Below, one piece after another: positions 27,983 through 63,040 of a stretch of DNA of 64,000 nucleotides. The notes under the pieces are model-generated. The model worked only from the letters and a program-made list of their open reading frames with translations. It searched no databases and was not told the DNA's origin. Source of the DNA: Watersipora subatra. Its lineage: Eukaryota; Bryozoa; Gymnolaemata; Cheilostomatida; Watersiporidae. The translations under genes and the position numbers were made by a program. The stretch's first letter is position 1. Each line of letters opens with the position of its first letter. The stretch covers positions 24,580,499 through 24,644,498 of the forward strand of contig NC_088715.1 in assembly GCF_963576615.1 (NCBI RefSeq), read 5' to 3'.

Positions 27983-28688
27983 GTAAGTTAGAATAATTTT
28001 ACTGGTGTTCTTGCGATTTACGTGTATTTAGTAAAATTCGAAATTGCTATAGCTCATTCAAATATAACATTATAACATTAGCAGAGCATCAGTTTGTCAT
28101 GTTTGAGTTGTTATTTTATTTATAATGCAGTTCATCATGCATTGCTTTATATCGTATTATACTATATCATATTACATACATGTATGATGAGAAGTATTTC
28201 GTTAAAGAGAGAAAGTCAGTACAGAAGAACCGGTCGTATATAAACGAGGTTAATATATCATTGCTGAGTAGGCTATTCTCTATGGTAGAAAATTCAGTGA
28301 ACTTGTCATAGATCTAAAAAAGCCAGAGTTTTGAAACGACGACAGTTGTCAACATGTGCTTACAGGTGTAATTAGCTATTTTAGTCACTGACCAATGACG
28401 TACATTCTTTCTTTGTGTAGTGTTAAGGCAAAAAATTTACTAAAAAGTTTACTCTGAACCACTTTACTTCCGTTCTTTTAAACAAATAATAAGTTAGTGT
28501 AAGTCAGTCTATATGACTTGAAGTACTCTAGGATACCTTATCTAAATTAGAATAACCTCTTTCCCGATTTTAAAACTCTTAATGCTTAGGTAAACATTAC
28601 ATTGTTTAGTAGTACATAGTAAGATATATCACTAGCTACAACACACACAGAGGGAGTGCATGAATTCAAATTTTTCAATAATCAACGA
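27983..28688. other. Upstream region of membrane-protein copy a
   Basis: Contains the second copy of the direct repeat and sequence conserved upstream of exon 1 in copies b and d (AAAGAGAGAAAGTCAGTACA; CTAGCTACAACACACACAGA). This is probably promoter or 5' UTR sequence. Confidence 0.5.
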
Positions 28689-28696
28689 TGACGTAA
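28689..28696 (+). promoter_or_regulatory. CRE-like TGACGTAA, copy a
   Basis: Conserved 53-55 bases before the ATG in three gene copies (also 40021-40028 and 60139-60146). Function is inferred only from motif and conservation. Confidence 0.3.
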
Positions 28697-28750
28697 TGAC
28701 TTTGTGCCAACAATCAAACTCACTCGAGATTTTAGCATACGACAAGCGAG

Positions 28751-32855: not shown

Positions 32856-33038
32856 TCACAGCGAGTCCAAAAACTTCTTTAGTTGCTCATGCCAATAGTC
32901 TGGGTTGTCAAGATAGCAGGCGTGCCCAGCATTAGGAATTACACAGAGCTGAGGACTGCTGGGTAACTTCATAAGCACTCTTTGGCTCGCATCTCCGATA
33001 GCATGGTCCTTCTCTCCTTGGACAACCAGAGCCTTCAA
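32856..33038 (-). pseudogene. ABHD14-like terminal exon (copy 2, open)
   Basis: Minus-strand acceptor CTCTCTAG, then LKALVVQGEKDHAIGDASQR, MKLPSSPQLCVIPNAGHACY, LDNPDYWHEQLKKFLDSL and TGA. This is the best-preserved copy: the Asp of GEKD, the His of NAGHACYLDNP and the WH pair all match the ABHD14 C-terminal end. Upstream exons (nucleophile Ser) are not visible within the unit, so it is unlikely to encode an enzyme by itself. It could serve a longer gene only if exons lie in the 2.5 kb upstream that I failed to recognise. Confidence 0.65.
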
Positions 33039-35000: not shown

Positions 35001-35460
35001 ACATTTGTTTTGTTTGCACAATTATTGTAATACTGAAGTGGTCATTACTATTGCTAATAGCCTTTGCAGACTAACTCGGGGAGATATTGAATATCATCTC
35101 TCATTCACTCGGTTTCCTTGCTTCAAATGGATTAAGAGTTCACTTCTGCCGATGAATTTGAACCCTATCATTTTAACCGTTTGGAGTTCCACTTTATCTA
35201 TCTTTCCAAAACTAGCGATGTACTCCTCAAAACAGAACTTCTTAAAGTAGACTCACTTTTGGGTCACTGTAGCTGTTTAGTTCACTTTTCGTACACTTTT
35301 GTCACTAACTCAGTACCTGAGAATATTTCTCTTCTTGTTTTCATTAATGCTGCCTCTCATATTACAAAACGGCATCAGAATTTACTACTTGCTGTACTGT
35401 TATTACTTTCAAGGTTGGAAAAATGACAGTCGTTTTTAGTAAGCAAAATCTTTATCAATG
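35001..35460 (+). pseudogene. Diverged copy of the 94-codon frame seen at 58457
   Basis: Corresponds to the segment at 58400-58741 and 46580-46920 (shared SKTSDVLLKTEL, LVHFSYT...TNSVPENISLLVF). Here the start region is in a different frame. Function unknown. Confidence 0.35.
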
Positions 35461-35636
35461 CCCGAAGAGTTAAACATAGGAAAAGGTCGGCACCAGTTCA
35501 GTAGGAATCTGAAGAATTGGTAAGGGTTAGTTATTTAATGACTAAGGTAATAAAATAAATAGACAGGTACTTATCTCATCATTGTCATATGTGTCAACCC
35601 ATCATTGGCAATAATAGTTAGAATATACCAGGATGG

Positions 35637-39178: not shown

Positions 39179-40020
39179 AAAAGGATGTGCCCAGACTTGC
39201 CCAAAATGATGTGTATAGTGAAACAGTCTGTGTCTATCTTTCGGATTCACATTGGCTATTGCGATAAAGGTCTAGTCCTACCCGGCTCTATTCGTATATA
39301 TTTTGTTTGTATTTGCTCACGATTGCTAATATAAAATTTTTAATCTAGCTACAAATACATTATTATAGATGTCTCAAATGCCTCAAATAAAGATAGTTAG
39401 AAATTTGTCATATTAGTTTCCTCTAAATGCTATGTAAACCAAATGCGGTGCTTTTAATAATGTTCCACTTCAACATGCGCTGCTTTATATGCTATTATAT
39501 TATATCATAGTAAAAATGATAAGATATATTTTGTTAAAGAGAGAAAGTCAGTACAGAAGTACCGGTCGTATTTAAAAGAGGTTAATGTATGATTGCTGAG
39601 TACGCTATTCTCTATGGTAGAAAATTGAGTGAAATGTCATAGATCTAAAAAAGCCAGAGTTTTGAAAAGACGACAGCTGTCAACATGTGCTTACAGGTGT
39701 TATTAGCCATTTTAGTCACTGACCAATGACATAGATTTTTTCTTTGTGTAGTGTTAGGTCATAAAATTCAATAATAAAATGACTCTGAACCACTTTACTT
39801 CTGTTCTTTTTAACAAATAATAAATTAGTGTAAGTCAGTCTATGTGACTTGACGTACTCTAGGAGACCATATCCAGATTAGATTAACTTCTTTCACAATT
39901 TTAAACTTCTGAATGCTTAGGTAAACATTACATTTTTTTAGTAGTACACAGTAAGATATATCACTAGCTACAACACACACAGAGGGAGTACATGAATTTG
40001 AATTGTTCAACAATCAACAA
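39179..40020. other. Upstream region of membrane-protein copy b
   Basis: Matches 27520-28690 with a deletion that removes the isolated exon candidate. Promoter or 5' sequence of copy b is inferred from conservation. Confidence 0.5.
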
Positions 40021-40082
40021 TGACGTAATGACTTCGTGCCAACAATCAAACGCACTCGAGATTCTTGCATACGACAAGCGAT

Positions 40083-42821
40083 ATGTGTTCATTTAAAGCT
40101 CTGACAGATATTCTTTTCTGCCTTTTTCTCTTCACATTATTCATGCCTATCTCTATCATCACTATGGTGGCCAGTGTGATTGGGCAACTTATTTTACTCG
40201 GAATCGTCTGCTCTCCAATAATATTCCTGCTGAGGTGATTAGAGCATTACTCGGGCTTATGCTGGTTGACTCTGTTAGCAAATATTTTGATATGGCGCAA
40301 GTTTTTAGAGAAGAATGTAGTTTATAAGTGTCCAACTGCAGTACTGTGTGTACCTTACAGGATCTGAGGCTAATATTTCATTTTTCCTATTTGTGCAAAA
40401 ACATTCAGTACACAACTTAATATTCCTATCAGCGTAATGAGCAAAACAGAATATTCTAGAATACCAAACACTTCTGTAACAGCTCTGATAGAATATTGCA
40501 TAATGTTTTACAAATCTATCATTCACTACATTGTTGATGTCATCAAAAAGGAAATTTATATTAAGTTATACTTATCTGATTAAATATATCAGCGGTTTAA
40601 GGGTAACATTAGCTATGTCCAATTTGATGAAATATTAAAATTCATCATAAGTGTGCTTGTGATGTGTTATTTACAGATTCAGTTATACTGCTTGTTAGGT
40701 GGTTAGTTTATAAGTTTAGATGGTTAAAAGCCTACTGAATATCTAACTGCAATTGTACTGACATATAAGAAAATATCTGTCTACATATTGTTACCTAGCA
40801 TAGGTGAAGCTTTTCTATGAAATCATTTCCGTGATGTCGTATCAAAAAGTCATCATGCTCTAAAATATTAGTTTTATCTGTTATATGAGAGTAAGTGCTA
40901 ACTTTTAGGTTAAGAAATTAGTAGTATATGGATTAAGTAACAATGAAATGATAGTTTTCAAATAATTTATAAATGGGATATTGCAAAACAAAGAAAAGAC
41001 AACATCCTTTTTTCTTCCATAGCTAAAATAGCTTGTACAGTTGTAAAAATGACCAATTATTTTTTATGTCATTTAGGTACAGTTATGATCAGGAAAAGAG
41101 GATAAGAATTTTCAAAAAAACAACTCGGTTTGCATCAAATAGAGTTTCCATCACCCCCACAGACTATAAGATTTGTGCCTTCATTACCTCCAATTCAAGA
41201 GGTGGAAGATACTGAAGAGGTCAAGGAGACTATGCAGTTTAAAAGGAGTGACAAGGTGAAGTATAAAGGTGAGAGATATAAAATAAAGTTTAAAACTATA
41301 AAATTGAGATTTAAATAGAGTAAATAGAAACAGTCTTAGAAAGAAACAAAGTCAAGTTTCACCAAAGTTTGGTTTGAATCTGGGAGATTCTTCACCTAGA
41401 GTACTGCTAGAGTACAAGTGCTTTTATAAAGCTCTAGCACTCTATCTTTCATATCCATTTCATCCTAGCTTCTGTTGTCCATGTCTCTGTTTATGCCTCT
41501 TACCATGTCCACCTAAAAGTCGACATCCACATCTACGCTTATGTCTACTTCTCTATCTACGCCTAAATCTATTTCTACCAATACATCCACAGATAGATCT
41601 ATGTCAATGTCTACATCTGTGTTTATACCTATATCTTTATCTGCATCTATGCCTGTGTCTATGTCCATGTCCATATCCACTTCCATCTCTACATTTACGT
41701 CCATGTGTTCATTTATGTACATATCTATGTTGACAACAAGGTCTACATCTAGGTCTATGCCTATGTCCATGTTCCCATGTTCTTGCCAATGTCTCTGTTC
41801 ATATCACAGCCTCTGTCTGCATTCATGTCTAACTCTACATTCATATCTATGTCAACGTCTAGTTCTAAGTCTATCCTGATATCAATGTCAATTTCCATGT
41901 CTACATCAATGTTTATGATTAAGCTTTTTTCCTTGTTCATGTCTGTGTCCATGTTCATTGTAATATCCACGTTTATGAACGTCTTCGTATCCACATATGT
42001 TTCTATGTCTGAGTTTATGCCCTTGTCCTTGTTTAAGGTTATATCTAGTTTTATGTCTATGACAACATCTATGTCTAATTCCATGTCAATGCTCATGTGT
42101 ATGTCTGTGCCTATGTTTGTGTCCATGTGCACACTCAAATTCTCGTCGATATCAATGTCTATATCCACATCCATGTCCACACCCGCTTCCATATCCACAT
42201 CAATGCCCATTCCCCATGCCCATTCCCCATGCCCATCCCTTTTTCTCATGCACATACCTATGGCCACGCCCTTGCCTATGCCCTTGCCCATGTTTATGTC
42301 CATTTACAAGCACATATACTTTAAATTTCTATGTCCATTATAACTTTCATGCATTGAAACTTACAGTGAATAGTATATGTTTATCTTACTCTGTATTAGT
42401 GTTAGTAAAATTATTAACTAGGGTTTATTAATAATAACATGATTTTACTACAATGATACAAGGTTACTATTAAATTACAGCTTCCTGTTCTGGTGATTAT
42501 ACGGACATCAAGGAAGAAGATAACTCTGAGGAATCGAATAAATTGAGTAGTAAGATGCTTCTTGACAAAGAGATAACCAGTGGATATCAACTAAGGAGAG
42601 CCAAAATTACAGAGCATCTTAATGACCAAGAAGCTGACTCTATCAGTGTAACGGTTAACACTAGTGACGACAGCGCTGCTAGCGTCAATCCGAGCGCTGA
42701 CCAAGAAAGTGGGTTTTTAAACATTTCAACTACCGGTACTTGTTCGGCTGCGAAGAAGCCAAAATCGAATAAAAGACTCCGTGGAATTCCATTATTTACT
42801 TCTTGTTTTGGTATCAAATAA
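40083..42821 (+). pseudogene. Orphan membrane-protein family, copy b (frameshifted)
   Basis: Exon 1, 40083-40234, is open, but its donor is GTGATT instead of GTGAGT. Exon 2 starts after ATTTAG at about 41079 (RYSYDQEKRIRIFKK). It has one extra A in the run after TTC, shifting the frame; the second half (HQIEFPSPPQTIRFVPSLPP) is in another frame. It ends AAAG/GTGAGA at about 41269. Intron 2 has the minisatellite at 41471-42308. Exon 3 from 42481 is fully open to TAA at 42819-42821 (ASCSGDYTDIKEEDNSEE...KKPKSNKRLRGIPLFTSCF). In this copy only the second of the two family acceptors is usable, because TAA follows the first. Confidence 0.7.
41471..42308. repeat. Hexamer minisatellite in intron 2, copy b
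   Basis: Same TCTATG/TCCATG hexamers as copy a and similar length (about 840 bases). A run of CCCATTCCCCATGCCCATTC-type variants lies near its 3' end. Confidence 0.9.
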
Positions 42822-43949
42822 TGTTAATGTTATTTCACTTCTTGTTTCAATAATAAATATTAATTTCTTTAATAATTACTTGTTAACCCATAACTACCAG
42901 CTACTACAGACATGTAGTTATCTCTATTGGCTAGGTAAAATGTGTAACTAGCAAGAGTTATTGTTGCTGCTGACAGCACAGCTGCTGCATCCTCAAAAAC
43001 AAACATCACCAGCTCTGAATAATGCTCATCATTACTTGTCAAGTTTTAGGTTTAAAAAATTGTGACAGTGTTTCATAGCTGTTTTTATTATATTTATAAG
43101 ATATATCTGATAAGTTAGTAATAAGTATTGGCTTTGAGAGAGAACACGTACCATCCGAGAGGAGTTAATTAGGAACAACATGGCAGTAAAACCTTGTCAA
43201 GCTAACAAACTTGGGAGATGTATAGAAAAATGGAATACAACCAGCTAAAATAATTGTTAATACTATAAGGGAAAAAGGACAGCTTCTTTTTGGTCATTTT
43301 AATTGGATTATTAACTGGCAAATTTTATGAAAAGCTGCATCATAACTATACTCTTAGGGTTGACAACTAAAGCAGGTGGCACTGAGTCTACCATGAGCGT
43401 AGCACCTGCAATGCGTGTCTGAACACATAAATGAAACAAATGGTGCCAAAAAATGGAAGATAGTAACTACATCACTCCATGGTTCAAGTTGCAACAAAAA
43501 TGCCATAATAACAAACACATGATTCATAAGACAAGACAAAATCAGTCAAGGTTAGCAAAAGGCGATGACAGAAACATGCATTCATTAATATTAGTGTTCT
43601 ATCTCAAGCTGGAGAGTGAATTGAACACCTGTTACAGCGGCAGGATCGGGGAGCGGTCCTTTTAAACTGACTCAATTGGAATCGTGTTAAAAAATGGTCA
43701 ACATGACATGGTTGGCAAGAATATACTTTTCCTTAAAAACAGTTCATGTTACACAAAACAATAAACGATGATGAAATGACATGATTCATAAAAGAGTTAT
43801 GATATATGATGCTGGGATAAAAAAAAATACACCTGGACAAGAATGTAACAACTGTTTGCTAAATAATATCACTAGCTGGCTTCACCAAGATACCATCAGC
43901 ACTAATTACAGAAATAAAGACAGCACCCCAACCCAAAAGTATAATCTAA
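42822..43949. other. Unit spacer (copy b)
   Basis: AATAAA at about 42852. Shared spacer as in other units, with the block at 31840-32060 largely deleted (around 43130). Confidence 0.5.
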
Positions 43950-43957
43950 GTCTACAG

Positions 43958-44756
43958 CAGACCCGTATTTCCTAGGGCGGCGGGGCGGCTGAGCCGCCCC
44001 AACCTCTCAATGATTTTCAGCAGCTAAGTACTAAGAATTGCAGTCTAAGCGCATTCACTCAGAATTTCCAACAACTAGCAACTAACGCTACAGCGCTAGT
44101 TGCTAGTAAATTAGCAACTAGCATAAATTAGTTCATTGCTCGCTTCGTCGCTCTTAGCTCATTGCTCCACTTCATCGCTAGTCTATCGCAACTAGCGATG
44201 AAGTAGAGAGGCTCACTAGTATTAGTCTCGCCTGCCACTAATGCAGTGAGTTAGTGATCCTTTTCTGCATTAGAGCAATCAAAACATTGATGAGGAGCAC
44301 CATGGGGCAGGCTCGTCTAAATAATCTTCTAATATTATACATATATAAAGATGTAGAATTACATGTACATGTAGATACAGATTAAGTTGTGAAATATTTC
44401 TGCCATGGGCACATTGGCAGAACAAGAGTTATTGCAATAAAGAAGTGATAGCTCGTGTTCTGTCAATGTCTCTTACAGAAATATTTAGTGTCACGAGTTT
44501 TATATCGTTCGTTGAATAAGGGAAAAGTTCTGCCTACCATGAACCATAAACAATATGTTTATGTAGATTTTGATGCTTACAATTGATTGCATTTATGCAT
44601 ACTTTGAGAGTTGTTGATGCTTAAAATGTCTAGAGCTTCGGGCGCTGCCTCGAATCCCCTTGGGAGGCTAACAGCGCCCTAAACCCCCCTCCAGGTGTTC
44701 ATAACTAGCCGCCTAATATTTGCAGCTCCAATTTACAACCAGGGAATACAGGCCTG
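43958..44756. mobile_element. 799-bp non-autonomous hAT-type element
   Basis: Ends CAGACCCGTATTTCCTAGG and, inverted at the right, CAGGCCTGTATTCCCTGG. Flanked by GTCTACAG and ATCTACAG (7 of 8 identical), the hAT target length. The sister units at 32.8 and 56.2 kb show the empty site (AGTCTACAGTAATATG). The interior has GC-rich end sequence (GGGCGGC...GCCGCCC) and inverted CTAGTTGCTAG-type repeats, with no open frame. Confidence 0.85.
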
Positions 44757-44774
44757 ATCTACAGTAATATGTTA

Positions 44775-44970
44775 CTCCTCTTTCTCACAGCGAGTCTAGA
44801 AACTTCTTTAGTTGCTCATGCCAAAAGTCTGGATTGTTGCAATAGCAGGCGTGTCCAGCCTTAGAAATTACACAGAGCTGAGGACTGCTGTGCAATTTCA
44901 TAAGCACCCTTTGACTAGAATCTCAAATAGCCTGGTCATTCTCTCCTTGGACCACCACAGCCTTCAACTA
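44775..44970 (-). pseudogene. ABHD14-like terminal exon (copy 3, broken)
   Basis: Minus strand: LKAVVVQGENDQAI, TGA, DSSQRVLMKLHSSPQLCVIS, KAGHACYCNNPDFWHEQLKK, FLDSL. One in-frame stop, and LDNP has become CNNP. The acceptor CTCTAG is retained. Directly follows the hAT insertion. Confidence 0.7.
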
Positions 44971-47210
44971 GAGAGCAATTACTAGTGAAGACCAGTGAAA
45001 ACAATATTTGTCTAAATTTTTGTTGTTTACGAGTCAATACATCAATAATTTGATTTTGCAACTACATTAATGACGCTAAAATGAACTTTTGAACTTGACA
45101 GATTATTTATTACAAACTTTATTATAGATTTCGTATAAAAATTAACGGTTCCAACAGCAAATGAACTGTGATTGCTGTGGCAAGTACGTCTACATTAAAC
45201 AGTTTGTTAAACTCTGATATCTACTAGTATCTATGCTAATAAATCCCACTTAGTTATTGTGTCTGTCTGTTAGTCTGTGTCCCCATTCTCACATGTTTGT
45301 CTGATTTTGTACAAACTTCACAAGCATTTGCTCCGTGACTTTTGCCAAGTCACTAAAAATGTTTGGTTTTAAAACTTATTAGAAGGTTTCTAAGAACCCG
45401 CCTCTTAAACATGGTTTATATACTCAAAAATCACTTTTACATGCATCAAAGACAATTACCAAGGACATGTGTTAAGGACAAGTGACTTCAATGAATGTGT
45501 CCTTGGATTATGGCTGTGAACGGAGTGTAGCAACTTGTGTTGAATATCTACTTGTATACTGAAGGCTATCTGACTGAAAATGCAAGAAATTCCAAACAAA
45601 CCCAGGCTTGATGCTAGTAAATTATAGACATGCAGTTGTCTTTCTAGACAGAATATAACATTCCACCACTTGTACATTGTCACACACTGATGTTATGATA
45701 GTATGTGAGTATTCCATCGTTGTATAACAACATGATCAAACGTCTAAGATGTTGTCTAAACTGCTTCTGCAGCATACACAATGTATTTAAAAATATTTTT
45801 TGTTGTTTTACAAACAAGTAATAAACACATTGTCCTGCTTCAAGCTCGATTAAAAAGTATTTACAAATATTGTTTTTATTTTTTAGCTAGCGTGTTTTTG
45901 GTTTTCAGGTAAATGAATTTATATAGCAACTCTATGGATCAAATGTAAATCAATGAAAAGAAGCTCTTTCAGTATTAACCAACAATGTCTGTCCTACAGA
46001 TATCATAGCCTTTAAACATTAATTACTTACAGAGACATTTCTACAACCTATAATGATACGCGAATGATTGATTGGGATCCCTAAAGATTCCAAAAGCACC
46101 TGGCTGAAACTTGACTTAAAAAACAAGATTTTAAATTTAATTATATTATGATGACATGAATGAACACCAACTACTTTATATCAAACTAGTTTGATTTAGC
46201 TTTTGAGAAATTAAAATTAGCTTCATTGAAAGAAATAAATAGCCATGAATTTATTTACACTACTCACAGGAAATTAGACTGAGAGGTTATAAAATTACAA
46301 ACAAAGAATTTTTGATGAGTTCTGAAAACGCAGGAACATGAAATATTTTCTTGAAATCGTTACTATAACAAGATTGCTGCCCATCTATCTGTCTGAAGCC
46401 ATGGTTGAGGGTTGAGAAACAAATTGCATTATGCAGGATTAGAACTTGTTTAGGATAGAACACTTGTACCCTATACTTACATGTATTGGTTCATGAAACA
46501 AAAGTGTGTAACTTATTTGCCTTGTTTACACAATTATTGTAATACATAAGTTGCCATTACTGTTGTTAATAACTTTTACAGACTACCTCGGGAGATATTG
46601 AATTTCATATCTCATTCACTCGGTTTCCTTGCTTCATATGGATTTAGAGTTGACCTCTGCCGATGATTTTGAACCCTATTATTTTAAGGGTTGGAGGTCC
46701 ACTTTATCTATCTTTCCAAAACTAGCGATGTATTCCTCAAAAGAGAACTTGATAAAGTAGACTCACTTTTGGGTCATGGTAACTTTTTAGTTCACTTTTC
46801 GTACACTTGTTGCACTAACTCAGTCAGCACCTGAGAATATTTCTTTTCTTGTTTTCTTTAATGCTGTCTTTCATATTACAAAACGGCATCAGAATTTACT
46901 ACTTGCTGAACTGTTATAACTTTGAAGGTAAAAAAAATGACAGTCGCTTTTAGTAAACAAAATCTTTTTTAATGCCCGAAGAGTTAAACATAGGAAAAGG
47001 TTCGCACCAGTTCAGTAGGAATCTGAAAAATTGGTAAGGGTTAGTTATTTAATGACTAAGTTAATAAAACAAATAGACAGGTAGTTATCTCATCGTTGTC
47101 ATTGAGTCAACCCATCATTGGCAATAATAGTTATAATATACCAGAATTGCAGCGTGATGGAATGCGCTGAGTTTCTAACTTTTACTGGGAAGCTTACCCA
47201 GGTATTATCG
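44971..47210. other. Unit spacer (copies b-c) with a large deletion
   Basis: Corresponds to 33040-35640 and 56402-59050 with internal losses. At 46580-46920 lies the diverged third copy of the 94-codon frame at 58457 (broken). No gene supported. Confidence 0.5.
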
Positions 47211-47220
47211 ATTCAAACCT

Positions 47221-48851
47221 ATCAAGTCGACTTTCCATCGCCTCCACAGACTATAAGATTTGTGCCTTCATTATATTCAATTCGAGAGGTTGAGGAGATT
47301 GAAGAGGTCAAGGAAACCATGCAGTTTGAAAGGAGTGACCAGGCTGAGTGTAAAGATGAGAGATATTAAATTGAGATTTAAATAGAGTAAATAGAAACAG
47401 TCTTAGAAAAAGGCAAAGCCAAGTTTCACCAACGTCTGGTTTGAATCTGGGACATTCTTCCCCTACAGTACTACTAGAGTACAGGTGCTTTTATAAAACT
47501 CTAGTACTCTATCTTTCGTATCCATTTTGTCCTAGCTTCTGTTGTCCATGTCTCTGTTTATGCTCCTTACCATGGCCACCTCCATGGCGACATTCACATC
47601 TACGCTTTTGTCTACTCCTCTATCTACCTTTAAATCAGTTTCTACCAATGCATTCACAGATAGATCTATGTCAATGTCTACATCTGTGTTCATATCTATA
47701 TCTTTATCTGCATTTATGTCTTTGTCTATGTCCATGTCCATATCCACTTCCATCTCCACATCTATGTTCATGTGTTCATTTATGTCCATATCTTTGTTGA
47801 CAACAAGGTCTACATCTATGTCTATGCCTATGTCCATGTTCACGTGTTCTTGCCAATGTCACTGGTCATATCACAGCCTTTTTCCGCATTCATGTCTAAC
47901 TTTACATCCATATATATGTCGGCGTCTAGTTCTAAGTCTATCCTGATATCAATGTCAATTTCCATGTCTACACCAATGTTTATGATTATGCTTTTGTCCT
48001 TGTTCATGTCTGTGTCCATGTTCATCGTAATATCTACGTTTATGACCCTCTCTGTATTCACATATGTTCCTATGTCTGAGTTTATGCTTATGTCCTTGTT
48101 TAAGGCTATATCTAGTTTTATGTTTATGGCAACATCTATGTTTAAATACATGTCAATGCTCATGTGTATGTCTGTGCCTATGTTTGTGTCCATGCGCACA
48201 CTCCAATTCTCGTCGATATCAATGTCTATGTCCACATCCATGTCTACACTTGCTTCTATATCCACATAAATGCCCATTCTCATGCTCATCCTTTTTCTTG
48301 TTCACATATCCACGGCCACGCCCTTGCCCATGCCCATGTCCATGTACCAGCACATGTACTTTAAATTTCTATGTTCATTATAACTTTCATGCATTGAAAC
48401 TATGCATCGAATAGTATATGTTCATCTTTGTAATAGTGTTCGGAAAATTATTAACTTGGGTTTATTAATAATAAGAAGATTCTATCACTATTATAATAGG
48501 TTACTATTGTATTACAGCTTCCTGTTCTGGTGATAATATGGACTCTATGGAAAAAGATAGCTGCGAAGAACAAAATGGAATACATAGTAAGGTGCTTCTA
48601 GACAAAGAGAATGCCAGTGAATATCAATAAAGGAGAGCCAAAAGAACAGATCATCTTAATGACCAAGAAGCCGACTCTATCAGTGTAAAAGTTAACACTT
48701 ATGAGGACAGCGCTGCCAGTTTGATCCTACTACAGATCCAGAGAGTGGTTTCTTTGAGAATTCAACCGCTAATTTGGCTGTGGATAAGCAAAAATCAAAT
48801 AAAAGACTCCGTGCAATTCCGTTATTTACTTCTTGTTTTGGTTTAAAATAA
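47221..48851 (+). pseudogene. Orphan membrane-protein family, copy c (exon 1 lost)
   Basis: Exon 1 and the first third of exon 2 are absent; sequence equivalent to 58940-59040 joins directly to the middle of exon 2 near 47215 (QVDFPSPPQTIRFVPSL, EVEEIEEVKETMQFERSD). The donor is destroyed (AAAG/ATGAGA). Minisatellite at 47541-48356. Exon 3, 48518-48851, has TAA in place of a leucine codon (CAATAAAGG versus CAATTAAGA) and a frame disturbance after SAAS. The gene is dead. The tRNA-Ala array starts 120 bases downstream. Confidence 0.75.
47541..48356. repeat. Hexamer minisatellite, copy c
   Basis: Same hexamer family and position (between exons 2 and 3) as in copies a, b and d. Confidence 0.9.
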
Positions 48852-49137
48852 TGTTTCTTCACTTCTTTCAATAATAAGTACTCATTTCTTTAAAAATTAC
48901 TTGTTATTCTATAACTAACAGCCGCTAAAGACATGTAATTATTTCCCTTGACTTGGTAAAATGTGTAACTATAGCATCAACACCAACAACAAGCCAACAT
49001 TTGCAGTTGTACGTCACGCGGTACTCCGGTTTGCCACACATATTAAAAACTTTACTCATGTAAATTCTAATTTGTTTTAAAGCTTACTTACGGACAATTG
49101 TTGTCTTTGAATAATTTAATCAATGTTACAGCCATAT

Positions 49138-49210
49138 GTGGGTGTAGCTCAAGTGGTAGAGCGCTTGCTTAGCATGCGAGAGGTACCGGGATCGATGCCC
49201 GGTGCTTCCA
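49138..49210 (+). tRNA. tRNA-Ala(AGC), copy 1
   Basis: Cloverleaf forms; loop TTAGCAT. The acceptor arm GTGGGTG/TGCTTCC has a mismatch at the second pair. Confidence 0.85.
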
Positions 49211-49468
49211 AATTCTTCGTGTTTTTTTCCTGTCACTGTCGGTACATCATTCGAGCCCAGCACTGTCATCAATCATGACGATTGACAAAAATGTATACTT
49301 CAGCATCAACAAAAAGCCAAATTTTGCAGATGTAAGTCACATAGTGCTCCCGTTTACCACACATAATAGAAACTTTACTCCTTTACTCATGTAAATTCTA
49401 AATTGTTTTAAAGTTAATTTGCAGACATTTTTTGAGTTTAAATAATTTCATCAATGAGATAGCCTTAA

Positions 49469-49541
49469 GGGGGTGTAGCTCAAGTGGTAGAGCGCTCGCT
49501 TTGCATGTGAGAGGCACTGGGATCGATGCCCGGCACCTCCA
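49469..49541 (+). tRNA. tRNA-Ala(TGC), copy 2
   Basis: All stems pair; G3:U70 present (GGGGGTG/CACCTCC); loop TTTGCAT; T-run terminator directly after. Confidence 0.92.
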
Positions 49542-49797
49542 ATTTTTTTGAGGTTTTCTTGTCACGTTCAATACATCAATCAAGCCCAACGCTGTCATCA
49601 AAAATGACGATTGACAACAATGCTTACGTCAACACCAACACGAAGTCAACATTTGCAATGATAGATCACATGGTGCTCCCGTTTACCAAACATATTAAAA
49701 ACTTTACTCCTTTACTCATGTAAATTCTAAGTTGTTTTAAAGTTTACTTACAGACATTTTTTGAGTTTAAATAATTTCGCCAATGAGATAGCCATAA

Positions 49798-49870
49798 GGG
49801 GGTGTAGCTCAAGTGGTAGGGCGCTCGCTTTGCATGTGAGAGGTACCGGGATCGAAGCCTGGCACTTCCA
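49798..49870 (+). tRNA. tRNA-Ala(TGC), copy 3
   Basis: Stems pair, with G-U pairs in the D and T stems (GGGC, CCTGG). T loop ATCGAAG. Followed by T6. Confidence 0.88.
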
Positions 49871-50126
49871 ATTTTTTCGTGTTTTTTCCCTGTCACTGTC
49901 GGTACATCAATCGAGCCCAGCACTGTCACCAATCATGACGGTTGACAAAAATGTATACTTTAGCATAAAAAAACCCGACTTTTGCAGATGTAAGTCACAT
50001 GATGCTCCCCTTTACCAAATAATATTATAAACTTTACTCCTTTACTCATATAATTTCTAATTTGCTTTAAAGCTTACTTACGGACATTTGTTGGGTATGA
50101 TGATTTTCTTCCATGATTTACAACGA

Positions 50127-50199
50127 GGGGGTGTAGTTCAAGTGGTAGAGTGTTCGCTTTGCATGTGAGAGGCACCGGGATCGATGCCCGGCACTTCCA
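50127..50199 (+). tRNA. tRNA-Ala(TGC), copy 4
   Basis: Stems pair; the D arm is GTTC/GAGT and the anticodon stem TTCGC, both slightly diverged. Confidence 0.88.
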
Positions 50200-50454
50200 A
50201 TTTTGTCGTGTCTTTTCATCTCGCTGTCGATACATCAATCGAGCCCTGCACTGTCATAAATCATTTCAATTGGCAAAATGCATACTTCAGCATCAACACA
50301 AAACCAACCTTTGCATTTGTAGGTCAGATGGTGCTCCCGTTTACCAAACATACTCAAAACTTTACTCCTTTACTCAGGTAATTTCTAATTTGCTTTAAAG
50401 CTTACTTACGGACATTTGTTGGGTGTGATGATTTTCTTCCATGATTTACAACGA

Positions 50455-50527
50455 GGGGGTGTAGCTCAAGTGGTAGAGCACTCGCTTTGCATGCAAGAGG
50501 CACCGGGCTCGATGCCCGGCATCTCCA
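50455..50527 (+). tRNA. tRNA-Ala(TGC), copy 5
   Basis: GGGGGTG/CATCTCC acceptor with G3:U70; one mismatch in the anticodon stem (CTCGC/GCAAG). Confidence 0.85.
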
Positions 50528-50771
50528 TGTTTTTCAGGTTATTTCCTCTTACTTTCGATGCATTAGTCGAGCCCAGCACTGTCATAAATCATTACAATTG
50601 ACAAAAATGTATACTTCAGCGTCAACGAAAAACCAACATTTGCAGTGCTAGATCACATGGTGCTCCGTCTACCATGCATATTAAGAACTTTACTCATATA
50701 ATTGCAATTTTGTTCTAAAGCTTACGGACATTTTTTCACTTCGAATAATTTCGTCAAAGAGATAGCCACAT

Positions 50772-50844
50772 GGGGATGTAGCTCAAGTGGTAGAGCGCTT
50801 GCTTAGCATGTGAGAGGCACCGGGATCGATGCCCAGCACTTCCA
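50772..50844 (+). tRNA. tRNA-Ala(AGC), copy 6
   Basis: Acceptor GGGGATG/CACTTCC and T stem CCGGG/CCCAG each carry one mismatch. Possibly weakened. Confidence 0.8.
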
Positions 50845-51094
50845 ATTTTTCCGTGTTTTTCTCCTGTCACTATCGATACATCAATCGAGCCCAGCACTGT
50901 CATCAATCATGTTGATTGACAAAAATTTATACTTCAGCATCAACAAAAAGCCAAAATTTGCAGATTTAAGTCACATGGAGCTCCCGTTTACTACTCATAT
51001 TAGAAACTTTACTCATGTAAATTCTAATTGGTTTTAACACTAACTTACGGACATTCTATGATTTTGAATAATTTCATTGACGAGATTGTCATAA

Positions 51095-51167
51095 AGGGGT
51101 GTAGCTCAAGTGGTAGAGCGCTCGCTTTGCATGTGAGAGGTACCGGGATCGATGCCTGGCATCTCCA
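51095..51167 (+). tRNA. tRNA-Ala(TGC), copy 7
   Basis: The first acceptor pair is A-C (AGGGGTG/CATCTCC); the other stems pair. Confidence 0.82.
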
Positions 51168-51415
51168 TATTTTTCAGGTTATTTCCTCTCACTTTCGATA
51201 CATCAATCGAGCTCAGCACTGTCATAAATCATTACAATTGTCAAAAATTTATACTTCAGCGTCAACAAAAAACAGATATTTGCAATAGTAGGTCACATGG
51301 TGCTCCCGTATACCACGCAAATTAAAAACTCTACTCATGTAATTGCGATTTTGTTTTTAAGTTTACCTATGAACATTTTTTGAATCGAATAGTTTCATCA
51401 ATAAGATAGCCATGA

Positions 51416-51488
51416 GTGGGTGTAGCTCAAGTGGTAGAGCGCTCGCTTAATGTGTGAGAGGTACCGGGATCGATGCTCGACACCTCCA
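51416..51488 (+). tRNA. Ala-type tRNA with AAT anticodon, copy 8 (likely pseudo)
   Basis: The loop is TTAATGT, so positions 34-36 read AAT (isoleucine codon ATT), while the body is the array's alanine tRNA and keeps G3:U70. One mismatch each in the acceptor (GTGGGTG) and T stem (CCGGG/CTCGA). Confidence 0.7.
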
Positions 51489-51731
51489 AGTCTTTTTTTT
51501 CCTGTCACTGTCGATACATAAATCGAGCCTAGCACTGTCATAAATCATTTCAATTGGCAAAGTGCATACTTCAGCATCAACAAAAACTCAACATTTGCAG
51601 TTGTTGGTCACATGGTGCTCCCATGTACCACACATGTTAAAAACTTTACTCATGTAAATTCTAATTTGTTTTAAAGCTTACTCACGAAAAATTTTTGATT
51701 TCGATTAATTTCATTAAAGCGATAGCCACAT

Positions 51732-51804
51732 GGGGGTGCAGCTCAAGCGGTAGAGCGCTCGCTTAGCATGTGATAGGCACCGGGATCGATGCCTGGCACT
51801 TCCA
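51732..51804 (+). tRNA. tRNA-Ala(AGC), copy 9, C8 variant
   Basis: Position 8 is C instead of the nearly invariant T (GGGGGTGCAGCTC). The closing anticodon-stem pair is lost (CTCGC/GTGAT). Confidence 0.78.
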
Positions 51805-52059
51805 ATTTTTTCGTGTCTTTTCATCTCACTGTCAATACATCAATCAAGCTCTGCACTGTCATAAATCATTTCAATTGGCAAAATGCATACTTCAGCATAA
51901 ACACAAAACCAACATTTGCATTGGTAGGTCACATGGTGCTCCCGTTTACCACACATACTAAAACCTTTACTCCTTTACTCAGGTAATTTCTAATTTGTTT
52001 TAAAGCTTACTTACGGACATTTTTTGAATTGAATAGTTTTATCAATAAGATAACCATAA

Positions 52060-52132
52060 GGGGGTGTAGCTCAAATGGTAGAGCGCTCGCTTCGCATGTG
52101 AGAGGCACCGGGATCGATACCCGGCACCTCCA
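52060..52132 (+). tRNA. tRNA-Ala(CGC), copy 10
   Basis: All stems pair; loop TTCGCAT; T loop ATCGATA; G3:U70. Confidence 0.92.
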
Positions 52133-52386
52133 ATTTTTCCGTGTTTTTCCCCCACTTTTGATACATCATTCGAGCTCAGCACTGTCATAAATCATTTCAA
52201 TTGGCAAAATGCATACTTCAGCATCAACAAAAAACCAACATTGGCAGTTGTAGGTCACATGGTGCTCCCGTTTACCAAAAATATTAAAAACTTTACTCCT
52301 TCACTCATGTAAATTCTAATTTGTTTTAAAGTTTACTTATGGACATTTTTTGAGTTTAAATAATTTCATCAATGAGATAGCCATAA

Positions 52387-52459
52387 AGGGGTGTAGCTCA
52401 AGTTGTAGAGCGCTTGCTTTGCATGTGAGAGGCACTGGGATCGATACCCGGCATCTCCA
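52387..52459 (+). tRNA. tRNA-Ala(TGC), copy 11
   Basis: The D loop has AAGTTGTA instead of AAGTGGTA (one of the G18/G19 pair changed). The first acceptor pair is A-C. Confidence 0.78.
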
Positions 52460-52704
52460 TATTTTCCGTGTTTTTCCCTCACTTTTGATACATCAATCGT
52501 GAATGCACTGTCATAAATCATTTCAATTGGCAAAATGCATATTTCAGCATCAACAAAAAATCAACACTTGCAGTTGTAGGTCACATGATGCTCTCGTTGT
52601 CCACACATATTAGAAGCTTTACTCATGTAAATTCTAATTTGTTTTAAAGCATACTTACGGACATTTTTTGAGTTTAAATAATTTCATCAATGAGTTAGCC
52701 ATCA

Positions 52705-52777
52705 GGGGGTGTAGCTCAAGTGGTAGAGCGCTCGCTTAGCATGTTCGAGGCACCGGGATCGATGCCCGGCACTTCCA
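52705..52777 (+). tRNA. tRNA-Ala(AGC), copy 12
   Basis: The anticodon stem is damaged (CTCGC/GTTCG, two mismatches); the rest is intact. Confidence 0.75.
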
Positions 52778-53034
52778 ATTTTTTTGTGTCTTTTCATCTC
52801 GCTGTCGATACATCAATCAAGCCCAGCACTGTCATCAATAATGACGATTTACAACAATGCTTTCTTCAACACCAACACGAAATCAACATTTGCAATGGTA
52901 GATCACATGGTGTTCCCGTTTACCAAGCATGTTAAAAACTTTTCTCCTTAACTCATGTAAATTCTAATTTGTTTTAAAGTTTACTTACGAACATTTTTTG
53001 AGTTTAAATAATTTCGTCAATGAGATAGCCATAA

Positions 53035-53107
53035 GGGGGTGCAGCTCAAGTGGTAGAGCGCTCGCTTAGCATGTGAGAGGCACCGGAATCGATGCCCGGC
53101 ACTTCCA
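53035..53107 (+). tRNA. tRNA-Ala(AGC), copy 13, C8 variant
   Basis: C at position 8; one T-stem mismatch (CCGGA/CCCGG). Confidence 0.8.
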
Positions 53108-53364
53108 ATTTTTTCGTGTCTTTTCATCTCGCTGTCGATACATCAATCAAGCCCAGCACTGTCATCAATAATGACGATTTACAACAATGCTTGCTTCAAC
53201 ACCAACACGACATCAACATTTGCAATGGTAGATCACATGGTGCTCCCGTTTACCAAGCATGTTAAAAACTTTTCTCCTTAACTCATGTAAATTCTAATTT
53301 GTTTTAAAGTTTACTTACGAACATTTTTTGAGTTTAAATAATTTCGTCAATGAGATAGCCATAA

Positions 53365-53437
53365 GGGGGTGCAGCTCAAGTGGTAGAGCGCTCGCTTAGC
53401 ATGTGAGAGGCACCGGGATCGATGCCCGGCACTTCCA
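53365..53437 (+). tRNA. tRNA-Ala(AGC), copy 14, C8 variant
   Basis: C at position 8; all stems pair. Its unit is nearly identical to those of copies 13 and 15. Confidence 0.85.
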
Positions 53438-53694
53438 ATTTTTTCGTGTCTTTTCATCTCCCTGTCGATACATCAATCAAGCCCAGCACTGTCATCAATA
53501 ATGACGATTTACAACAATGCTTGCTTCAACACCAACACGAAATCAACATTTGCAATGGTAGATCACATGGTGCTCCCGTTTACCAAGCATGTTAAAAACT
53601 TTTCTCCTTAACTCATGTAAATTCTAATTTGTTTTAAAGTTTACTTACGAACATTTTTTGAGTTTAAATAATTTCGTCAATGAGATAGCCATAA

Positions 53695-53767
53695 GGAGGT
53701 GCAGCTCAAGTGGTAGAGCGCTCGCTTAGCATGTGATAGGCACCGGGATCGATGCCCGGCACTTCCA
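53695..53767 (+). tRNA. tRNA-Ala(AGC), copy 15, lacks G3
   Basis: Acceptor GGAGGTG/CACTTCC gives A3:U70 in place of the alanine identity pair G3:U70. C at position 8; anticodon stem CTCGC/GTGAT. Confidence 0.75.
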
Positions 53768-54022
53768 ATGTTTTCGTGTCTTTTCATCTCGCTGTCGATA
53801 CATCAATCAAGCCCTGCACTGTCATAAATCATTTCAGTTGGCAAAATGCATACTTCAGCATACACACAAAACCAACATTTGCATTGGTAGGTCACATGGT
53901 GCTCCCGTTTACCACACATACTAAAAACTTTACTCCTTTACTCAGGTAATTTCTAATTTGTTTTAAAGCTTACTTACGGACATTTTTTGAATTGAATAGT
54001 TTTATCAATAAGATAACCATAA

Positions 54023-54095
54023 GGGGGTGTAGCTCAAGTGGTAGAGCGCTCGCTTCGCATGTGAGAGGCACCGGGATCGATACCCGGCACCTCCA
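54023..54095 (+). tRNA. tRNA-Ala(CGC), copy 16
   Basis: Intact stems, loop TTCGCAT. Near-duplicate of copy 10. Confidence 0.92.
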
Positions 54096-54350
54096 GTTTT
54101 TCCGTGTTTTTCCCCCCACTTTTGATACATCATTCGAGCTCAGCACTGTCATAAATCATTTCAATTGGCAAAATGCATACTTCAGCATCAACAAAAAACC
54201 AACATTGGCAGTTGTAGGTCACATGGTGCTCCCGTTTACCAAAAATATTAAAAACTTTACTCCTTCACTCATGTAAATTCTAATTTGTTTTAAAGTTTAC
54301 TTATGGACATTTTTTGAGTTTAAATAATTTCATCGATGAGATAGCCATAA

Positions 54351-54423
54351 GGGGGTGTAGCTCAAGTTGTAGAGCGCTTGCTTTGCATGTGAGAGGCACT
54401 GAGATCGATACCCGGCACCTCCA
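54351..54423 (+). tRNA. tRNA-Ala(TGC), copy 17
   Basis: D loop AAGTTGTA as in copy 11; one T-stem mismatch (CTGAG/CCCGG). Confidence 0.8.
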
Positions 54424-54668
54424 ATTTTTCGGTGTTTTTTCCCTCTCTTTTGATTCATCAATCGTGAATGCACTGTCCTAAATCATTTCAATTGGCAAAA
54501 TGCATATTTCAGTATCAAAAAAAATCAACACTTGCAGTTGTAGGTCACATGATGCTCTCGTTGTCCACACATATTAGAAGCTTTACTCATGTAAATTCTA
54601 ATTTGTTTTAAAGCATACTTACGGACATTTTTTGAGTTTAAATAATTTCGTCAATGAGTTAGCCATCA

Positions 54669-54741
54669 GGGGGTGTAGCTCAAGTGGTAGAGCGCTCGCT
54701 TAGCATGTGAGAGGTACCGGGATCGATGCCCGGCACTTCCA
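54669..54741 (+). tRNA. tRNA-Ala(AGC), copy 18
   Basis: All stems pair with G3:U70. The best-preserved AGC copy in the array. Confidence 0.92.
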
Positions 54742-54900
54742 AATTCTTTGTGTTTTTTTTCCCTGTCACTGTCGGTACATCATTCGAGCCCAGCACTATC
54801 ATCAACATGATGATTGACTAAATGTATACTTCAGCATCAACAGGAAGTCAACATTTGCAATGGTAGGTCACATGGTGCTCCCGTTTACCACGCATATTAT

Positions 54901-58741: not shown

Positions 58742-60138
58742 AGGTCGAAAAAAATGACAGTCGCTTTTAGTAAACAAAATCTTTTTCAATGCCTGAAGAG
58801 TTAAACCTAGGAAAAGTTCGGCACCAGTTCAGTAGGAATCTGAACAATTGGTAGATGTAGTTATTTAATGAATAAGGTAATAAAATAAAGAGACAGGTAG
58901 TTTATCTCATCATTGTCATGTGAACAGCTTACCATTGGCAATAATACATGTAGTTAGAATATACCAGAATGGCAACATGATGGAATGTCCTGAATTTTCA
59001 ACTTTTGCTGGGAAAGCTTACTCAGGTATTGATTCAAATCTATTCGCAACGAGCGTTTTTATGATCTTGAATAGTAGTCTCACTGTAAACAACTTCGCAC
59101 AAATTTAGCAAAACGCAATGCCGACGAATTCATTCCGATTTTTCAGCTCCGATGATTTGAAGTGAAAGAAACTGCAAATCCAGTCAAAGCACGGAAAGCC
59201 AGAAATTAAAGTTGATGTTCCTTGATAGAGTAAGTGGTGAGTAGCATGGGTCCAGAAAAAATAAACAGATGCAATTCTAGAAACTAATACAAAAATAGAT
59301 TTAGGAAGAAGGAAACACAAGTGGAATACTCACATTGACCATCGCTTACAATTTTTTAAAGAGTTTGAGAGAAAGTTATATTACTTCACAATAATCTTAA
59401 AATTTTTACCACAATAATCTTTTATAATAGTCATTGCTATCTCCAATCCTGTAATAAACATGCAGTTAACTATGATGACATCTGAGAATTAGAAGTTGTC
59501 TACTCAGAGCCTTGAGTGTATCGCAGCGTCAGGTTGTCACGTCTGGGTTATTATTTTAGTAATATACACTTCATCATGCATTGCTTCATATCGTATTATA
59601 TTATATCATATTGCATACATGTATGATAAGAGATATTTTGTCGTATATAAACATAATATATAGTTATTAATATAACTAATAAAATATAATATTGTCGGTT
59701 AGTATATGATTGCTGAGTGCGTTATTCTCTATGGTAGAAAATTCAGTGAACTCGTCATTGTTCTGAAAAAGCCAGAGTTTTGAAAAGACGACAGCTGTCA
59801 ACATGTGCTTACAGGTGTTATTAGCCATTTTATTCTCTGACCAATGACGTAGATTCTTCCTTTGTGTAGTGTTAGGCCATAAAATGTACTAATAAAATGA
59901 CTCCGAAACACTTTACTTTTGTTCTTTTTAACAAATAATAAATGAGTGTAAGTCAGTCTATGTGACTTGACGTACTCTAGGAGACCACATCCAAATTAGA
60001 ATAACTTCTTTCACGATTTTAAAAATCTGAATGCTTAGGCAAACATTACATTTTTTTAGTAGTACATAGTAAGATATATCACTAGCTACAACACACACAG
60101 AGGGAGTGCATGAATTCAAATTTTTCAACAATCAACAA
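58742..60138. other. Upstream region of membrane-protein copy d
   Basis: 58742-59060 continues the unit. 59060-59500 has no counterpart in the other units, and its origin is unclear. From 59520 the conserved upstream sequence of the gene resumes. Confidence 0.45.
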
Positions 60139-60146
60139 TGACGTAA
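60139..60146 (+). promoter_or_regulatory. CRE-like TGACGTAA, copy d
   Basis: Same site as in copies a and b, 53 bases before the ATG; the surrounding sequence (CAATGACGTAATGACTTCGT) is also conserved. Confidence 0.3.
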
Positions 60147-60198
60147 TGACTTCGTGCCAACAATCAAACGCACTCGATTCTAGCATACGACAAGCGAG

Positions 60199-63004
60199 AT
60201 GTGTTCGTTTAAAGCTCTAACAGATATTCTTTTCTGCCTTTTTCTCTTCGCATTATTCATGCCTATTTCTATCATTACTATGGTGGCCAGTGTGATTGGG
60301 CAACTTATTTTACTCGGAATCGTCTGCTCTCCCATACTATTCCTGCTGAGGTGAGTAGAGCATTACTAATGCTTATGCTGGTTGACTTTGTTAGTAAATA
60401 TTTTGATATAGCTCAAGTTTTTACAGAAGAATGTAGAACATAGTTGTCCAACTGCAGTACTGTGTGTATCTTATAGGAACTGAGGCTATTATATCATTTT
60501 TCCTTTATGTGCAAAAAACAATAAGTACACAACCTAATATTCCTATCAGCGCAAAGAGCAAAACAGAATATTCTAGAATAGCAAACATTTCTGTAACAGC
60601 TCTGGTATAATACTGCATAATGTTTTACAAATCTATTATTCACTACATCATTGATGTCATCATACAGGAAGTTTATATTTAGTTATACTTATTTCCAATT
60701 TGATGAAATATTGAAATTGATCATAAGTGTGCTTGTGATGTGTTATTTACAGATTTACTTATACTGCTTGTTAGTTGGTTAGTTTATAAGTTTAGATGGT
60801 TAAAAACCTACTGAATATGTAACTGCAATTGTACTGACCTATAAGAAAATGTCTGCCTACATATTGGTACCCAGCATAGGCATAGCTTTTCTATGAAATC
60901 ATTGCCGTGATGTCGTATCAAAAGGTCATTATGCTCTAAAATATTAGTTATATCTGTTATATGAAAGTAAGTGCTAACTTTTCGGTTAAGAAATTAGTAG
61001 TATATTGGTTAAGTAACAATGAAATGATAATTTTTAAATAAATTATAAAAAGGGTATTGTCAAAACAAAGAGAAGACAACATCCTTTTTTTCCATAGCTG
61101 AAATAGCCTGTATAGTTGTGACAATGACCAATTATTTTTAATGTCATTTAGGTACAGTTATGATCAGGAAAAGGAGATTAGACTTTTCAAAAGACAGCTC
61201 TGTATGCATCAGGTAGAGTTTTCATCACCTCCACAAACTACAAGGTTTGTGCCTTCATTACCTCCAATTAAAGAGGTCGAAGAGATTGAAGAGGTCAAAA
61301 AAGCCATGCAGTTTGAAAGGAGTGACAAGGCTGGGTTTAAAGGTGAGAGCTACAAGATTAAAATATGAATAGCGTAAATAAAAACAGCCTTGAAAAAGGA
61401 GTAGAGCCAAGTTTCACTAAGGCTTGCTTTAATTTGAGAAGTTAACTAAAGTTTTCATAAAGCACCAGTACCCTGGCAGTCTGGTATGCCGTATGAGATC
61501 ATCAGGTGTAATAGCTATGTAGAGTGACAAGGCTATGTGTAAAGGTGAGAGATATAAAATTGCGATTTAAATAGAGTAAATAAAAACAGTCTTAGAAAGA
61601 AGCAAAGCCAAGTTTTGCCAACGTTTGGTTTGAATCTGGGAGATTCTTCCCCTAGAGTACAGCTAAAGTACAAGTGTTTTTATAAGGCTCTAGTACTCTA
61701 TCTTTTGTATCCATTTCATCCTAGCTTCTGTTGTCCATGTCTCTGTTTATGCCCATTACCATGTCCACCTCTATGTCGACATTCACATCTACGCTTATGT
61801 CTAGTTTTCTATCTACGTTTAAATCTATTTCTACCAATACATCCACAGATAGTTCCATGTCAATGTCTACATCTGGTTTTATGTCCATGTCCATATCAGC
61901 TTCCATCTCCACATCTATGTCCATGTGTTCATTTATGCCTATATCTATGTTGACAACAAGGTCTACATCTGGAGTACATCTATGGCTATGTATATGTCCC
62001 TGTTTATATCGCAGCCTCTGTCCGCAATCATGTCTAACTGTACATCCACATCTATGTCGGCGTCTAATTCTAAGTCTATGTTGATACCAATGTCAATTTT
62101 AATGTCTACATCAATGTTTATGATTATGCTTTTGTCCTTGTTCATGTCTGTGTCCATGTTCATTGTAATATCCACGTTTATGAGCGTCTATGTATCCACT
62201 TATGTTCTTATGTCTGAGTTTATGACTTTGTCCTTGTTTAAGGCTATATCTAGTTTTATGTCTATGACAACATCTGTCTAATTCTATGTCAATGCTCATG
62301 TGTATGTCTGTGCCTATGTTTGTAACCATGCGCACACTCTAATTCCCATCGATATCAATGTCTATGTCCCCATTCATGTCTACACCCGCTGCCATATCCA
62401 CATCAATGCCCATTTCCCATGCTCATCCTCTTTCCATTCAGATATTCTTGGCCAAACCCTTGCCTATGCCTGTGCCCTTGCCTATGTCCATGTACAAGCA
62501 CATGTACTGTAAATTTCTATGTCAATAATAACTTTCATGAGTTGAAACTATACATTGAATAGTATATGTTTATTTTACTCTGTACTAGTGTTAGTAAAAT
62601 TATTAACTTGGGTTTATTAATAATAATATGATTTTATCATTATTATTCTAGGTTACTATTGTGTTCCAGCTGATTGTTCCGACGATAATATGGACTTTAT
62701 GGGAGAAGACAAATCCGAGGAACAAAATGAAATACATAGTCAAATGCTTCTTGACAAAGAGATAACCTGTGAATATCAATTAAGAAGAGCCAAAAGAACA
62801 GAGCGTCTTAATGACCAAGAAGCTGACTCTATCATTGTAAGAGTTAACACTAGTGAGGACAGCGCTGCTAGCGTCAATCCTAGCACTGACCCAGAAAGTG
62901 GCTTCTTTGACATTTCAACAGCTAATTCGAGTGTGAAGAAGCCAAAATCGAATAAAAGACGACGTGGAATTCCATTATTTACTTCTTGTTTTGGTATCAA
63001 TTAA
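60199..63004 (+). CDS. Orphan two-TM membrane protein, copy d (intact, three exons)
   Basis: Exons 60199-60350, 61152-61342 and 62652-63004 join in phases 2 and 1 to an uninterrupted 231-codon frame. Residues 10-33 and 36-50 are hydrophobic (ILFCLFLFALFMPISIITMV; LILLGIVCSPILFLL), suggesting a membrane hairpin or signal peptide plus anchor. Exon 2 adds YSYDQEKEIRLFKRQ, a proline-containing linker and an acidic EVEEIEEVKK. Exon 3 is Asp/Glu/Ser-rich and ends in a basic tail KKPKSNKRRRGIPLFTSCF. A second acceptor 18 bases on (TTCCAG, exon from 62670) would drop six residues in frame. AATAAA lies at 63035. No known family recognised. Copies a, b and c share every exon present but are broken. Confidence 0.6.
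61343..61725 (+). repeat. Duplicated exon-2 end and donor inside intron 2 of copy d
   Basis: At 61521-61560 GAGTGACAAGGCTATGTGTAA, then AGGTGAGAGATATAAAAT, repeats the end of exon 2 and its donor. The stretch at 61465-61515 between the two is the short element also found at 1032-1080. Confidence 0.7.
61726..62500. repeat. Hexamer minisatellite in intron 2, copy d
   Basis: About 775 bases of TCTATG/TCCATG hexamers, slightly shorter than the other copies, with an internal loss near 61890. Confidence 0.9.
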
Positions 63005-63034: not shown

Positions 63035-63040
63035 AATAAA
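63035..63040 (+). terminator. Polyadenylation signal of copy d
   Basis: AATAAA 31 bases after the stop codon; the same signal follows copies a, b and f. Confidence 0.5.

Follow-up and report, generated by a model that had tools for sequence, protein, structure and literature searches.

Caveolins and reticulons are membrane proteins with a hairpin or a long hydrophobic segment, in which a polar tail follows the long hydrophobic stretch. Taxonomically restricted (orphan) multigene families have no known domain, undergo tandem birth and death, and evolve fast. The SpTransformer (Sp185/333) family of sea urchins is reported to comprise about 50 small, similar and tightly clustered genes (PMC5491942, PMC8634487, PMC9623053).

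The stretch of DNA analysed here (the window) covers 64,000 nucleotides of the bryozoan Watersipora subatra, C8:24580499-24644498 (NC_088715.1), in a 784-Mb assembly. It carries a head-to-tail array of gene copies with a unit of about 7.5 kb in self-comparison. The six copies or fragments of the original prediction (a to f, Table 1) are real, the best piece of copy d matching each of the other five with E-values of 1e-92 to 0, far beyond chance. The tandem birth and loss that had been proposed is supported. Copies a to c had been described as broken in different ways. Copy b has stops in exons 2 and 3 plus a frame break in exon 3, c has a frame break in exon 2 and an altered first donor, and a is reduced to exon 3 and its 3' flank; exon 3 of a, c and f is open in one frame when the second of two acceptors (see below) is used. 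Exon 3 of copy e has one stop and one frame break, and an exon 2 match belonging to copy f lies at C8:24579183, 1.3 kb before the window begins. A common tail sequence had also been reported; it reads KRRRG in d, KRLRG in c and f, and KRLRA in e.

Several other elements occur in the window. Most of the 330-bp units at 48977-54899 contain a tRNA-like sequence, with 17 Rfam tRNA matches above threshold, and ARAGORN reports 11 genes, one for isoleucine and ten for alanine, the latter with three kinds of anticodon. The 7.5-kb unit was also searched for a further gene, but no frame of at least 60 aa was common to all three intergenic copies (four frames were common to two of the three), and this candidate was rejected. 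In the genome, COX1 gave no match although it did in the control; a mollusc haemocyanin beta-sandwich and GFP gave none either, nor did these two in any control genome.

Table 1. Positions in the window of the gene copies, the parts of copy d and other elements.
Feature	Position	Strand	Remarks
Copy f	630-1017	+	fragment, most of exon 3
Copy a	24974-25839	+	exon 3 and 3' flank only
Copy b	28085-35638	+	three exons: 28751-28902; about 29756-29945; from 31139
Copy c	39452-47151	+	three exons: 40083-40234; about 41081-41271; from 42483
Copy e	47221-48971	+	part of exon 2 through 3' flank; exon 1 and intron 1 lost
Copy d	59525 to window end	+	intact three-exon gene
5' box of d	60110-60198	+	directly upstream of the ATG; core 60126-60160; from an alignment of 47 loci
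Exon 1 of d	60199-60350	+	about 43 hydrophobic residues; ends in phase 2
Exon 2 of d	61152-61342	+	YSYDQEKE..PPQTTRF..LPPIKEVEEIEEV; ends in phase 1
Degenerate ATGTCY hexamer array	61700-62520	+	inside intron 2 of d; also in b, c and e
18 nt originally counted as exon 3	62652-62669	+	in frame in d; not in seven of nine modelled C9 copies
Exon 3 of d (most likely extent)	62670-63004	+	acidic tail, basic patch, LFTSCFG end; stop 63002-63004
AATAAA polyadenylation-type signal	63035-63040	+	after the stop; at the matching place in four of six window copies (b, c, d, f)
21-bp tandem repeat	10534-10756		10.6 copies, 99%; open in one frame (repeated NKMLHDP)
Reverse transcriptase frame	37136-38599		RVT_1, E 3.1e-29; part of a non-LTR-type element between b and c
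Tandem array of 330-bp units	48977-54899		about 18 units, in the 3' flank of e, splitting unit e in two

The exons, junctions and phases (2, then 1) first given for copy d were recovered, and its frame is open and translates to 231 residues as claimed. Nevertheless, 62670 is the most likely start of this gene's exon 3, giving a protein of 225 aa rather than 231, because a second acceptor (TTNCAG|YT, 18 nt downstream of the first in d) was found in all 15 copies compared and keeps the frame, whereas the first (62652) puts exon 3 out of frame in seven of the nine modelled C9 copies. Among the copies examined for it, the first acceptor was not found in C8r and C9_198. The hexamer array in intron 2 of d and its counterparts in the other three copies (b, c, e) contain long open frames with no clear sign of coding.

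Copy d is, judged by sequence, a member of a large genome-wide family of predicted protein-coding genes of one design. Protein searches of the genome were made with d (best 150 of 257 matches) and with a member from contig C4 (best 150 of 202), and DNA searches with exon 3 (best 40 of 50 candidates) and exon 1 (best 40 of 57). Chaining 183 of the 300 best protein matches gave at least 91 loci, under a loose rule that allows gaps of up to 4.8 kb, so that one 6.9-kb chain probably includes a neighbouring fragment. Family matches lie on at least seven contigs, and among the matches listed at least 34 loci, on C4, C5, C7, C8 and C9, hold all three exons, in the sense that every exon is matched, which does not imply an intact gene. 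Weak exon 1 matches at C10:49.2-49.3 Mb and C8:13.6-14.0 Mb represent very distant members.

Gene models were tried for 22 loci and built for 18, of which 15 are intact from ATG to stop and encode 214-227 aa (on C4, C7, C8 and C9); b, c, C4_20995 and C4_20755 were the loci among the 22 that gave no model. The three built but not intact are C9_248, with an early stop, and C8g and C8h, with GTG for ATG. The latter (C8:24649385 and C8:24660616) are the two copies after d, and apart from the GTG at the start codon their frame is open; these starts count against the explanation favoured below. Exon 1 was set at 152 nt; 17 of the 18 models have an exon 2 of 191 nt and one has an exon 2 of 188 nt, and an in-frame stop occurs six codons before the ATG in all 18. 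Two splice exceptions were seen: one donor in C8h is GC, and another second acceptor had to be used for C4_41748. The script that builds the models favours open frames and canonical splice sites, and the openness of any single model is thus partly achieved by construction; the comparative evidence is therefore the better support. The original picture, in which a cluster decays and a single member stays intact, describes the window but not the family, which has 14 further intact models elsewhere in the genome: as far as these models go, most copies inside the window are broken while the family as a whole is not.

A new feature is the conservation of the DNA directly upstream of the start codon. 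About 90 bp before the ATG (the 5' box) align across 47 loci, and only partly in the C10 and two distant C8 loci, where reading of the sequences (one locus on C10, two on C8) showed part of the box to be recognisable. In the 47-locus alignment the mean majority fraction is 0.91 over 60128-60162 and 0.81-0.84 in the rest of the box, compared with 0.59-0.63 over 60000-60109, where some of the aligned stretches are shorter. Between deep subfamilies the box is more similar than the coding sequence in all seven pairs compared (identity 0.76-0.81, against 0.65-0.73 for exon 1, 0.62-0.67 for exon 2 and 0.51-0.58 for exon 3), whereas in the near pair d/C9_889 exon 1 (0.88) exceeds the box (0.85). To our knowledge, it is uncommon for a regulatory box to be better conserved than the protein it accompanies. 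Allowing up to three mismatches, the 35-base core has 37 sites in the genome (a control with the reversed pattern had none), and every one of the 37 is followed on the same strand, after 39-86 nt, by a match to exon 1 of the family. With this many mismatches allowed, the box is confined to the family, as judged from the assembly, although no core site accompanies 13 of the 50 exon 1 matches used.

We consider the box a putative shared switch of the family. The sequence TGACGTAA may resemble bZIP sites, and AACAAT and CTTTGT may resemble HMG-box (SOX) sites. The strongest competing interpretation, which we regard as possible yet clearly the lesser one, is that the box serves chiefly for control from the 5' untranslated region, acting through upstream start codons or through a cis- or trans-splice acceptor at CTAG|CAT, rather than a promoter. 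The nearly fixed spacing to the ATG (41 nt at 28 of the 37 sites), the presence of CTAGCATA in 12 of 19 upstream stretches and the frequency of upstream ATGs in the alignment all speak for it; on the other hand, those ATGs have been lost in several loci of the C4 20-Mb and C9 39-42-Mb groups, there is no pyrimidine tract before the CTAG, and CTAG itself is absent from several loci, for example c, C4_20995 and C7_43525. A conserved upstream reading frame in the box was also considered and rejected as not general, its start codons being lost in several loci of two subfamilies. Whatever protein binds the putative switch would point to the time and tissue in which the whole family acts, so the box offers a direct handle on it.

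The second new feature concerns the last exon in the C8 cluster. Of the ten pairs that can be formed from b, c, d, C8g and C8h, nine show greater divergence in exon 3 than in intron 1 (0.15-0.21 vs 0.05-0.10), the exception being d/C8g (0.036 vs 0.062). Fisher tests were applied to 9 of the 45 compared pairs, which are not independent of each other: exon 3 is the more diverged in five C8 pairs (p 3e-3 to 1e-7), while d/C8g tends the opposite way (p 0.085), two C9 pairs give p 0.36, and d/C9_889 goes the opposite way at p 5e-3. Copy c illustrates the discordance, as its exon 3 is nearest to that of C8r (0.110) while its intron 1 differs by 0.235 from C8r and by 0.096-0.102 from the other C8 copies.

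Positive selection was rejected as the main cause of the fast exon 3, as synonymous sites are raised too. Because exon 3 has a Ks of 0.33-0.48 among b, c and d with Ka/Ks of 0.44-0.54, the exon 3 types in these copies look older than the adjacent introns, which suggests that older types have been exchanged among copies of the C8 cluster; on these comparisons, gene conversion or unequal crossing-over among paralogues is the best explanation. That exon 3 in the nine pairs has instead diverged where it stands, by diversifying selection or local mutation, would account for its excess over intron 1, yet we consider this rather unlikely in view of the high Ks, of the accompanying Ka/Ks and of the affinity of copy c's exon 3 to C8r.

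The pattern of substitution indicates that constraint acts on the predicted protein, most strongly in exons 1 and 2. The median Ka/Ks is 0.44 (range 0.30-1.61) for the 135 pairs compared among 17 models (C9_248 was left out, and one pair with Ks <0.02 and Ka>Ks was dropped), and Ka is below Ks at z < -1.96 in 112 of these pairs. Values above 1 occur in three pairs, all of close C9 copies with Ks of 0.02-0.03. Pooled Ka/Ks is 0.36 for exon 1 and 0.35 for exon 2, and rises to 0.66 in the middle and 0.61 at the end of exon 3, a weak constraint that counts against our preferred explanation. Within the window, exon 3 gives Ka/Ks of 0.27-0.63 over all 15 pairs of the six copies, not near 1, the value that the original prediction had named as a sign against it, as calculated with the six codons of the originally predicted, longer exon 3 still included. 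When d is set against four C9 copies, the divergence is 0.11-0.13 in exon 1 and 0.18-0.20 in exons 2 and 3, as against 0.28-0.29 in intron 1; the contrast between introns and exons is not uniform, as the final 160 bp of intron 2 have diverged by 0.12-0.14, less than exons 2 and 3.

Since 15 of the 22 loci tried give intact models, and the 104 pairs of these have a median Ka/Ks of 0.45, this is, on sequence grounds, a functional multigene family with several intact members under purifying selection. A dying cluster that decays like any tandem repeat, with d open by chance or because it is recent, would explain why b, c and e are broken, why a and f are fragments, and why C8g and C8h are devoid of an ATG; we think this very doubtful, as the intact models are spread over four contigs with the constraint just described, and as exon 1 has diverged far less between clusters than intron 1 has. 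It is extremely improbable that the genes are cargo or part of a transposable element, despite the spread of matches over several contigs and the reverse-transcriptase element inside the array, given that introns are retained, that the copies form tandem clusters, and that no convincing match to a transposon protein, an outcome that would have spoken against the original prediction, was found in the databases searched.

The predicted products share about 43 hydrophobic residues encoded by exon 1, an acidic stretch in the last exon, a basic patch and, in most of them, the motif LFTSCFG. In four members, residues 10 to 42-45 have high hydropathy, and the net charge is -12 to -15 in the middle of the tail and +5 to +7 over the last 30 residues; directly after the hydrophobic segment it is only 0 to +2, which counts against a cytosolic position of the tail. 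Residues invariant in seven diverse members include M21 P22, G34 Q35, S44 P45 and RYSY at 51-54, and near the C-terminus K207, K210, L217 F218 and C221 F222. AlphaFold folds exon 1 of three window copies as one helix (residues 2-50) and not as a hairpin, with a mean pLDDT of 91 in the best of five models and 78-83 in the other four, a result that does not separate a hairpin from a single span. No convincing match to copy d was found in Pfam (best E 0.062, under the cut-off) or the PDB (best E 0.72), and a profile of seven members found no relative in the PDB (best E 9.6). When the seven were compared singly with Pfam, PHROGs and NCBIfam, each hit came from one member only, the best being the unnamed phrog_27887 (E 0.0079); a scan of viral_contigs with two peptide patterns gave 108 pattern matches, none of which was confirmed as a viral relative. 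The statement that no domain is recognisable thus holds for these searches, and that of a small membrane protein as far as the strongly hydrophobic first exon goes: the family products appear to be small membrane proteins of no recognised kind.

Taking these observations together, we favour an explanation, which we regard as somewhat better than an even prospect as a whole, in which a family of one design combines a membrane anchor, a variable tail, a shared 5' switch and exchange of exon 3. Many members lie in tandem clusters which gain, lose and recombine copies. The hydrophobic segment, either a two-pass hairpin or one long helix, would anchor the protein in the membrane, with the tail possibly cytosolic according to the positive-inside rule, which is weak here. 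The variable part that does the work may be the acidic tail, and the basic-LFTSCF end may make a second contact with the membrane or a partner. The shared 5' box would switch the members on together, while duplication and exchange of exon 3 would vary the tail and leave anchor and switch more fixed. As to function, one may guess that the proteins are co-expressed adaptors or effectors tethered to the membrane and serve a process that evolves fast, such as defence or reproduction. In its boldest form, which we put forward as speculation with a low chance of being right, a family-private switch of about 90 bp, held more strictly than the proteins themselves, would drive dozens of membrane-anchored proteins with exon 3-exchanged cytosolic tails, forming a variable recognition or effector repertoire at the inner side of the membrane (in defence, allorecognition or gamete contact). 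The conservation of the 5' box and the divergence of exon 3 relative to intron 1 are new here, and the size, gene structure and 5' element of the family now give something to look for in relatives and in expression data.

The comparison with the systems named at the outset places the family as follows. The SpTransformer genes are reported to be small, similar and clustered, as found here, but with two exons and repeats in the second, while the present family has three exons and a long hydrophobic segment; compared on exon count, none of our models, all of three exons, has the two-exon design. With caveolins and reticulons the family shares a polar tail behind a long hydrophobic stretch, but it differs from them in having no convincing Pfam or PDB match. 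It resembles orphan multigene families in its lack of a known domain, its tandem birth and death and its fast evolution, and differs in a 5' element that exceeds the protein in conservation between deep subfamilies and whose sites, as found, all belong to the family. As read from its sequences, the family thus appears ordinary in its birth-and-death evolution and unusual in its private, deeply conserved 5' box.
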